Below, piece by piece: positions 24,398 through 39,466 of a DNA stretch of 64,000 nt. Location of the stretch: positions 1 through 64,000 of the forward strand of contig NZ_JASDDG010000029.1 in assembly GCF_030407495.1 (NCBI RefSeq), read 5' to 3'. This DNA is from Arthrobacter sp. APC 3897. Lineage in GTDB: Bacteria > Actinomycetota > Actinomycetes > Actinomycetales > Micrococcaceae. A model generated the notes under the pieces. It was not told the DNA's origin. It saw nothing but the letters and a program-made list of their open reading frames with translations, and ran no database searches. Numbering within the stretch: position 1 is the stretch's first letter; each line of letters opens with the position of its first letter. Both the position numbers and the translations under genes were made by a program.

Positions 24398-24649
24398 GTG
24401 CCCGAGTCCAAGTCCCGCAAGAAGCCCGCAGCTGCGCCGCCCGCACCCAAGGCGTCGTCAACTCCGAAGCCGAATCCGGTCTGGTACAAGCCGGTCATGT
24501 TTGGCCTGATGATTATTGGCCTCCTGTGGATTATCGTCTTCTACATTTCCCAGGGCGCGTTTCCGGTGCCGGCGCTCGGCGGCGGCAACATCCTGGTGGG
24601 ATTCGGCATTGCCATTGTCGGCTTCCTGATGACCACACGCTGGCGCTGA
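24398..24649 (+). CDS. crgA: cell division protein CrgA
   Basis: An 83-residue protein: a Lys/Pro/Ala-rich cytoplasmic N-terminus and two membrane helices (about 33-52 and 61-78), ending MTTRWR, the standard CrgA pattern. CrgA is an actinobacterial septation factor that interacts with FtsZ, FtsQ and PBPs. GTG 24398 has a strong AGGAGG site. Divergent from the sortase gene. A cluster of DnaA boxes starts about 65 bases after its stop. Confidence 0.92.
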   Translation: MPESKSRKKPAAAPPAPKASSTPKPNPVWYKPVMFGLMIIGLLWIIVFYISQGAFPVPALGGGNILVGFGIAIVGFLMTTRWR

Positions 24650-24714
24650 CCAGCTGCTCCCGTCCCCTTCCGCCTCCGCTGCCTTCTGCAGCGGGGGCGT
24701 TTTCTTTGGCTGCC

Positions 24715-25117
24715 TGTGGAGAAACCTTGTACACACTCTGTGCACAGAGTTATCCACAGGTGTGTGTAACTTTTGCCTGGCTGGCAGGAAAATCCGGGCA
24801 GTACCGGGGCTGAGACTTATCCACAACTGTGGAATTACATGTGTGTAACTTGTTTTAGCCTCTGGATAACCTGTTCATAGCCCGCCATTCAGGCTGTGGA
24901 TAACTTAGGGGCCGCCGTGGATAGCTCGCCGGGCAGGACGGACTGCTCCGGAGTGGAAGCACCGCAGCTCCGCCGGGATTCAGTGCCTCGGTGGCCTTAA
25001 ACGACGCAGGTTTCCCGTGGTGCAGTCCCGGGACGGAGCTTCCACCGCCTCCGGATTCCGCTGAGTTATTAACACTGTGGGTATCCCTGTGGATAACACC
25101 GGGCAGGCTGTGGATGG
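24715..25117. other. DnaA-box cluster between crgA and the rhomboid gene
   Basis: The 490-bp gap after crgA contains four perfect 9-mer DnaA boxes: TTATCCACA at 24750-24758 and 24817-24825 on the plus strand, and TGTGGATAA at 24895-24903 and 25088-25096. One-mismatch copies lie at 24715-24723 (TGTGGAGAA) and 24861-24869 (TCTGGATAA), with weaker ones at 24916 and 25109. A TGTGTGTAAC motif occurs twice (24760 and 24839). No gene is visible. It is too far from oriC (about 14 kb) to be part of it, so a DnaA-titrating or regulatory role is inferred. Confidence 0.8.
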
Positions 25118-25139
25118 CCGGAACGGCCGCCCGGGTGTG

Positions 25140-25991
25140 TCAGACCAGTCCCTTAGCTGCGGCCAGTACTGCTGAAATGATGCACAGGAACACTACAACT
25201 GCGGCCAACCCGCCAAACTGCACGAGGTTCCGGCTTTTCCCCCGGGGCGCGTAGACCAGCACCGCAGCACAGGCCACTCCGGTCAGCAATCCGCCCAGGT
25301 GGGCCTGCCACGCGATGTTCGGCACGAAGAACCCCAGTGCAAAATTGACGGCCAGCAGGATCAGCACTGACCGAACGCTGGCCCGGCGCTGGAGCAGAAC
25401 CACCAGCAGGGCACCGAAGAGGCCAAAGATCGCTCCCGATGCCCCTACAACGGGCTGGTTGATGGGGCTGAGCAGCAGTACGCCCACTGATCCGCCCAGT
25501 GCGGACACCAGATAAAGCAGAGCGAAGCGTAATCTGCCCAGCTGCGGCTCCAGCCCCTGCCCCAGGAACCAGAGGGCATAGAGGTTGAACGCAATGTGAA
25601 GTATTCCTGACGGGGAATGCAGGAACGCTGAGGACAGCATCCGCCAGGGCTCGATCCCGGTATACAGCGGTGCATACCAGAGCTCGTAGGTAAACGGAGG
25701 GTAGAAGAACTGAACGGCAAAGAAGATCCCGCAAATCACCATCAGGGTGATCGTGACCACCGGCTTCCCGTTGGACACTTTTCCGCCGTAGGGAGTGCGG
25801 TAGGCAGGCGACTGGCGGCGGCTTTCCGCAAAGCAGTCCGCACACTGGATTCCCACCGGCGCGGTGTGCTGGCACTCCGGACAGGCCGGACGGCCGCAGC
25901 GCTGGCAGCGGATGTAGCTGACCCGGTCCGGATGACGCGGACAGACCGGCACCTGTGAGGCAGGTGTTTCAGCGGGAACTCCATACGACAT
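25140..25991 (-). CDS. rhomboid intramembrane serine protease with zinc-ribbon N-terminus
   Basis: A 283-residue protein. The cytoplasmic N-terminus (to about 60) has seven cysteines (17, 29, 32, 37, 40, 50, 53) with His residues, forming a zinc-binding B-box-like module. The rhomboid domain follows with the family's HSPSGILHIAFNLYALW motif, the nucleophile Ser185 in GASGAIFG and the dyad His231 (WQAHLGG). It would cleave membrane proteins within the lipid bilayer; substrates unknown. ATG 25991 follows GGGAG; the open frame continues upstream to 26063 through the cyclophilin gene's end region. Confidence 0.92.
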   Translation of the reverse strand: MSYGVPAETPASQVPVCPRHPDRVSYIRCQRCGRPACPECQHTAPVGIQCADCFAESRRQSPAYRTPYGGKVSNGKPVVTITLMVICGIFFAVQFFYPPFTYELWYAPLYTGIEPWRMLSSAFLHSPSGILHIAFNLYALWFLGQGLEPQLGRLRFALLYLVSALGGSVGVLLLSPINQPVVGASGAIFGLFGALLVVLLQRRASVRSVLILLAVNFALGFFVPNIAWQAHLGGLLTGVACAAVLVYAPRGKSRNLVQFGGLAAVVVFLCIISAVLAAAKGLV

Positions 25992-26074
25992 TGCGTTACT
26001 CCCAGAGAGAAAAATGAGGCCAGATGGACGAAAGGCCCCGGCCGGAGGTTCCGACCGGGGCATCCGTGAACTGG

Positions 26075-38902: not shown

Positions 38903-39466
38903 TGCAGGGTGCCGCCTTTCACAACGTACTTCTCAGTACAACTGGATCTTCATGACAAGTGAGGGAGCATCGCCGCGCGCTGCGGCGCCGCAGTTGCACC
39001 GCGTTCGAGACACCATCTCAGGATGGGCTGCGAATGACAACAATACTCTGTGCCAGCTTAGCGGCAGACCTGCCGCCTGTGCACGGCCCCTGAGGCACCC
39101 TGGGGACCCATCCATGTGATTTGTGAAGACATCCGATGTTCGTTTCGGTCAGGGTGCGCAGGGAGTCCGGAAAGGTCAGATGTTATTTGGTGGAACCGAA
39201 TTTCTTAAGGTTCGTAGTGTTAATAACTCCTGTGGATACTGTGGATAACCTAGCCGATCGGGGCGTCAGGGCTTTTGTTGCCTGTGGATAACTTGTGGGT
39301 ACTGCATGCAGCGTCCGATCCGGGCTGTGGGGAACTTTTTTGTAATTCCGCGTATCCACAGGGAAGTGCAGCTGGTTGGGAGTTATCCACCGGGTTATCC
39401 ACACCCTTGTCCACAAATGTTAATTTCGAGCCCCTGCGGGGCTCTGCATCCCCGGAATTCCGGGGA
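38903..39466. other. oriC, dnaN-dnaA intergenic region
   Basis: The 564-bp gap between dnaA and dnaN holds a DnaA-box cluster at 39231-39415: perfect boxes at 39240-39248, 39283-39291 and 39395-39403, and one-mismatch boxes at 39231-39239, 39352-39360, 39383-39391 and 39407-39415, in both orientations. An AT-rich stretch at about 39181-39230 (TTTCTTAAGG, GTTAATAACT) next to the boxes is the likely unwinding element. The dnaN-proximal part (38903-39180) probably holds the dnaN promoter. This is the standard actinobacterial oriC position. Confidence 0.92.

Follow-up and report, generated by a model that had tools for sequence, protein, structure and literature searches.

The window analysed here, a 64,000-nucleotide stretch of the genome of Arthrobacter sp. 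APC 3897, contains crgA and a gene for a rhomboid-family membrane protease in convergent orientation. They are separated by an apparently non-coding gap of 490 bp (24650-25139) that lies about 14.2 kb from the dnaN-dnaA gap (oriC). The identities of dnaA and dnaN were confirmed by family models; the NCBIfam CrgA models also match the crgA product (E 2.6e-26), under the curated cut-offs of those models. A strong terminator follows crgA, and the DnaA boxes come after it (Table 1). Since the two genes converge and the boxes lie past the crgA terminator, the cluster is not an ordinary promoter of crgA or of the rhomboid gene.

Table 1. Features of the crgA-rhomboid gap and its flanks (positions in the window)
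Feature	Position	Strand	Basis or remarks
crgA, left convergent neighbour	24398..24649	+	83 aa, GTG start; PF06781 above Pfam cut-off
crgA intrinsic terminator	24671..24699	+	12 pairs, then T run; RNA fold -25.1 kcal/mol
DnaA box, 1 mismatch, TTCTCCACA	24715..24723	-	sequence scan
DnaA box 1, perfect	24750..24758	+	sequence scan
DnaA box 2, perfect, start of invariant core	24817..24825	+	sequence scan and genus comparison
Core TCCACANNTGTGGAATTACATGTGTGTAA, 29 bp	24820..24848	+	one copy in own genome
Predicted McdR operator AATTACATGTGTGTAACT	24833..24850	.	sequence; 1 mismatch to published AATnACAnnnnTGTnATT
DnaA box 3, 1 mismatch, TTATCCAGA, 44 bp after box 2	24861..24869	-	sequence scan
DnaA box, perfect	24895..24903	-	sequence scan
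DnaA box, perfect	25088..25096	-	sequence scan
Rhomboid-family membrane protease gene, right convergent neighbour	25140..26063, 5' end provisional	-	PF01694 E 5.1e-34

The original prediction was of four perfect and at least two one-mismatch DnaA boxes in a gene-free gap some 14 kb from oriC, at a density equal to or above that of the dnaN-dnaA gap. All six boxes were located within the 490 bp, and the perfect boxes number four here and three in the dnaN-dnaA gap (which has three perfect and four one-mismatch boxes, 39231-39415). Over the whole window there are 25 matches at up to one mismatch against 5.4 expected. How exceptional is such a group? The whole genome (3,785,652 bp in 60 contigs) contains 326 matches at up to one mismatch but only 22 perfect boxes, so that four perfect boxes in 347 bp are not due to chance: the Poisson expectation is 0.002 perfect boxes in a stretch of that length, and about 7.5e-9 windows with at least four per genome. 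In a genome-wide comparison resting on perfect boxes, at least two within 400 bp were found at three places only, namely the crgA gap (four), oriC (three) and the dnaB-rplI gap (two). Measured in perfect boxes, the density is far above the genome background outside oriC, as in DnaA-box clusters, and it is not repeated in many unrelated intergenic regions. The second DnaA-box group outside oriC in this genome (C36:6152-6400, equivalent to L019 1501-1750) consists of two perfect and three one-mismatch boxes. Both genes flanking the dnaB-rplI group are on the minus strand, and the group may overlap dnaB itself, the 5' end of which is provisional.

Is the cluster a secondary or relic replication origin? 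The number of boxes is close to that of oriC, but the crgA-rhomboid gap has an overall AT content of 0.41 versus 0.45 in the dnaA-dnaN gap, and its AT-richest 50 bp (0.64, versus 0.66 in the dnaA-dnaN gap) falls on the conserved core itself, leaving no separate unwinding region. The cluster moreover coexists with oriC in the same window. We regard an origin, secondary or relic, as exceedingly improbable.

A conserved core and box register

Box 2 marks the start of a 29-bp core that is nearly invariant in all 29 genomes of a genus sample (28 genomes plus Arthrobacter sp. APC 3897 itself). Every one of the 29 has at least three perfect DnaA boxes after crgA, confirming that the boxes are kept in close relatives, and every one has a plus-strand box 66-68 bp upstream of box 2, perfect in 28; the minus-strand box 44 bp downstream of box 2 is kept in 21 of the 29. 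Mean pairwise identity reaches 0.98 in the core but falls to 0.57 in the 58 bp that separate boxes 1 and 2. (The identity of the crgA coding sequence was discarded as a yardstick of conservation, being invalid through indels.)

This conserved, mixed-orientation register recalls the three-box core of DARS, one box of which opposes the others according to the published account. A DARS-like site would promote the release of ADP from DnaA and so stimulate initiation. Against such a role, the third box is found in only the 21 genomes noted above, the boxes, 67 and 44 bp apart, look too widely spaced for a DARS core, and the place beside oriC resembles the copy-number logic of datA. We therefore consider a DARS-like site unlikely.

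Searching the family at up to three mismatches detected the core in 88 of 295 genomes (10 of 32 genera), as a single copy in each and without mismatch in 74; an order search detected it in 7 of 297 genomes, all Micrococcaceae, and in none outside the family. Named genomes were also searched for exact copies of a 21-bp part of the core, which gave 64 stretches, mostly from Arthrobacter. At least three DnaA boxes lie within 300 bp in 63 of these, and crgA, the rhomboid gene or ppi is present in the fetched DNA of 60. The 21-bp part had no exact match in viral_contigs, on which ground viral spread of the core was rejected.

Records titled Sporosarcina beigongshangi (L096) and Vibrio cholerae 35D (L106) carry the same core in an Arthrobacter-like ppi/crgA region. 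Chance was rejected as the source of these matches because ppi or crgA neighbours are present; the assemblies are probably contaminated or wrongly labelled. In Sediminivirga luteola the DnaA box plus core occurs a second time (L114 7570-7605), upstream of a GntR-family gene, and the DNA fetched around this copy gave no match to crgA, the rhomboid gene or ppi.

In two genera of the family, g6 and g27, the core lies away from crgA. In g6, crgA is on one contig and the core on another, about 1.5 kb from ppi; in two g27 loci the core is 7 to 28 kb from crgA. Five family loci in which ppi was not found (g3, g7, g13, g14 and g16) lack a box in the first 1.2 kb past crgA; over the 20 kb fetched, no box group was detected in g3, g7, g13 and g16, and one lies 8 kb away in g14.

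A palindrome resembling the McdR operator

The most invariant part of the core is a palindrome, which was derived from sequence comparison before its match to a published motif was seen. That motif, AATnACAnnnnTGTnATT, is the one through which the essential MerR-type protein McdR (Rv1830) represses the division regulator whiB2 in mycobacteria; it is supported by DIP-seq, EMSA and operator mutants in the main text of the report (PMC9040748). The same text locates McdR operators at whiB2, MSMEG_0833 (a homolog of Rv0430) and MSMEG_5468, and describes filaments and a raised origin-proximal copy number in M. smegmatis overexpressing McdR (PMC9040748). The copy-number effect could be indirect, arising for instance from the division block or from induction of dnaN and dnaB. 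The main text of PMC9040748 names neither crgA nor DnaA; one of two DIP-seq peaks that it leaves without a name may be located at the post-crgA site.

The predicted Arthrobacter operator matches 11 of the 12 fixed positions of the McdR motif with a spacer of 4, the mismatch being C for T at arm position 17, where C or G recurs in Micrococcaceae. On the left, the operator starts 8 bp past the end of box 2; on the right, its arm shares bases with TTACACACA (minus strand, 24840-24848), which is DnaA-box-like with two mismatches. When the own genome was searched with TTACAYNNRTGTAA, two perfect places were found, the crgA-rhomboid gap and one beside a WhiB-family gene; at one mismatch there were six more, no excess over the reversed control with its five, which leaves just the two perfect places as distinctive. 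The TTACAC-NN-GTGTAA part recurs across families in the post-crgA gap. A class search with AATYACACNNGTGTRATT at up to one mismatch gave matches in 120 of 296 genomes, at one to three places each, and in three genomes for the reversed control. Among the 30 palindrome loci listed, 12 adjoin whiB2-like genes, 7 adjoin crgA and 11 adjoin neither, two of these 11 lying upstream of DUF3263 genes.

We take Rv0430 to be a DUF3263 protein. In 29 of 30 DUF3263 loci (the 30th is cut by a contig end) the best palindrome match precedes the gene and differs at 2-5 of 16 positions, versus 6-7 elsewhere; in 20 further DUF3263 loci the palindrome occurs at 0-1 mismatch in only 7. DUF3263 is present in 144 of 148 class genomes, and a literature search for its function found no paper. 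The own genome has a DUF3263 gene (C4, L358 2077-2412) that is preceded by an McdR-type palindrome with 0 mismatches and followed by a LytR_C gene. In f22, probably mycobacterial, an McdR-like palindrome is also flanked by an R3H-domain (jag-like) gene and rsmG/gidB (L278 19768 and L279 18473, reverse-complemented coordinates; the domains of the neighbours were checked for L279 only). As candidate binders of the palindrome, BldD and WhiA were considered on the basis of their motifs and dropped. The DUF3263 protein, as an autoregulated factor, was rejected in its turn because only those 7 of the 20 further loci have the palindrome at 0-1 mismatch and because McdR is identified as the binder in PMC9040748.

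Does Arthrobacter have McdR? The own genome contains an McdR-like MerR-type gene (L386 1874-2500, with a MerR_1 domain) whose neighbours are a BFN-nuclease gene, a second MerR gene and an FHA gene. Similarity to the f22 proteins, together with gene order, makes it a probable ortholog of McdR (Rv1830). In 19 of 20 fetched loci the McdR-like gene is found with FtsR-like and BFN genes; L391 (f19) has BFN only and no McdR-like gene, although f19 has the palindromes. The stretch of the McdR-like protein that reads DNA is nearly identical throughout, f37 and f35 included.

Might DnaA and McdR then form a transcriptional element here, acting on crgA, on the rhomboid gene or on a small RNA from the gap? 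In favour of this reading, DnaA is known to regulate transcription in other settings. The role of McdR as a repressor at whiB2, as given in the main text of PMC9040748, points the same way. On the other side stand the convergent genes and the terminator ahead of the boxes; in addition, a search of the crgA-rhomboid gap for sigma-70-type promoters found none, a search of the gap against Rfam gave no match, and in g6 and g27 the core is away from crgA. A transcriptional element is in our view very unlikely. Nor is there support for the idea in the original prediction that the DnaA boxes tie crgA expression to replication, since the boxes come after the crgA terminator and the core is elsewhere in g6 and g27. 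Septation may be linked to the cluster by another route, through the predicted McdR operator inside it.

Recurrence after crgA across the class

Eighty long loci were fetched, of which five without crgA were left out and 75 counted. The interval scored ran from crgA to ppi or, where ppi was not found, over 1.2 kb or to the contig end (190,520 bases in total, inserted genes included). An McdR-like site (up to two mismatches) lies in the interval in 53 of the 75 loci, versus 14 matches in 1,094,594 bases downstream; outside Micrococcaceae the figures are 26 of 40 loci versus 5 matches in 633,011 bases. DnaA boxes number 388 in the intervals versus 386 downstream (oriC included), which makes the intervals about sixfold denser. 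The site was found in the interval in 16 of 25 families (12 at up to one mismatch) and is missing in nine (f2, f7, f11, f14, f18, f35, f37, f44 and f53). DnaA boxes lie within 200 bp of the palindrome in 52 of the 53 palindrome-bearing loci, the exception being L261. All 27 family loci with both crgA and ppi have DnaA boxes and an McdR-like site (up to two mismatches) between them; the eight family loci lacking the site are all loci in which ppi was not found, and include the two g27 loci and one truncated at 648 bp.

A second set comprised 30 loci and shared 9 genomes with the first. An McdR-like site occurs within 700 bp after crgA (283 bp for L231) in 26, at up to one mismatch in 22, and all 12 fixed positions are matched in 6. 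In the 1.7-1.8 kb upstream the best match to the McdR motif is 3-6 off in all 30. At least one DnaA box is present in 29 of the 30 loci. The misses are f35, two f37 loci and one family locus whose cluster is further off.

Considering boxes alone, in the 40 order and class loci the densest group of at least three boxes in 20 kb is directly after crgA in 20 and the second-densest in one; in 19 there is no such group there. Boxes downstream of crgA are thus widespread in the class without being universal, and because box groups recur in this place the Arthrobacter core is a lineage-specific version of something wider.

Four f37 loci (Streptomyces-like, from three genomes) have boxes directly after crgA and no McdR-like site, and f35 loci likewise have DnaA boxes without the site. 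As f37 and f35 have both boxes and an McdR-like gene, boxes and operator can evidently separate, and the occurrence of boxes without operator in Streptomyces-like genomes makes the composite a variant, not a universal arrangement. These loci speak for a plain DnaA titration cluster, whose palindrome would have no replication role and would be, for instance, a local nucleoid or topological site. Further support comes from B. subtilis and S. coelicolor, in which DnaA-box clusters repress untimely initiation (PMC5742627). What tells against a palindrome foreign to the cluster is its nearness to the boxes in all palindrome-bearing loci except L261, and its standing as the most invariant part of the core. 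We consider plain titration possible, though doubtful.

Candidate function and comparison with known systems

The suggestion that the cluster acts as a DnaA sink or nucleotide-exchange site (datA, DARS or a DnaA-box cluster) holds in part. A non-promoter DnaA-binding locus near oriC fits, because of the convergent genes, the post-terminator place, the conserved spacing and the recurrence across the class. On balance we lean towards a datA-like DnaA-binding locus with an embedded predicted McdR operator, and infer that DnaA and McdR both bind there, interfere with each other and thereby affect initiation. Several high-affinity boxes in conserved register would load DnaA, and the loaded DnaA would be withheld from oriC by titration or by datA-like promotion of ATP hydrolysis. 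Being 14 kb from oriC, the locus would be duplicated right after initiation and would help to prevent re-initiation. The McdR operator would sit inside the cluster, overlapping or near DnaA sites; when McdR is high and division is held back the operator would be occupied, DnaA assembly would be disturbed and more initiation would follow. If McdR weakened DnaA loading it would raise initiation, in agreement with the copy-number effect of McdR overexpression.

A more far-reaching proposal, which we advance only tentatively, is an actinobacterial checkpoint node at which DnaA and McdR compete or cooperate on one composite element beside oriC, one regulator shutting down whiB2-driven division and simultaneously resetting replication initiation. 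If true, this would account directly for the increase in origin copy number under McdR overexpression. Replication timing in actinobacteria and its coupling to division are poorly understood. Our analysis suggests that the locus could couple replication to division. As a conserved element in which DnaA sites are joined by a predicted operator for an essential regulator of division, it offers one short DNA target, with an 18-bp operator, on which both can be tested. A literature search, with most subscription papers outside it, found no paper linking DnaA-box clusters with crgA, nor did it find in print the conserved register and an McdR-like operator within a DnaA-box cluster.

Like the McdR operators at whiB2, MSMEG_0833 and MSMEG_5468 described in the main text of PMC9040748, the Arthrobacter element is a palindrome of the AATnACAnnnnTGTnATT type with a 4-bp spacer; unlike them it is situated between convergent genes amid DnaA boxes and has one arm mismatch. 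The resemblance to E. coli datA is that of a non-coding DnaA-box cluster apart from oriC in the oriC-proximal part of the chromosome, and datA is proposed to hold initiation down. The distance from oriC differs (14 kb here, about 470 kb for datA as implied by published positions), as does the partner, a predicted McdR operator here and an IHF site in datA. With E. coli DARS1 and DARS2 the cluster shares boxes in conserved register with one opposed to the others. Unlike in DARS1 and DARS2, the Arthrobacter boxes are 67 and 44 bp apart, which looks wider than the DARS spacing, the third box is not always kept, and the partner proteins differ. As in S. coelicolor, this is a DnaA-box cluster in an actinobacterium; the S. 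coelicolor clusters H69, H24 and D78 were reportedly described by Smulczyk-Krawczyszyn et al. in 2006. Initiation-regulating DnaA-box clusters are thus already known in Streptomyces, perhaps even at the crgA-downstream place, which the cosmid name suggests may presumably be that of H69. The Arthrobacter cluster differs from the Streptomyces-like f37 loci in having an McdR-like site, of which there is none in the f37 loci examined.
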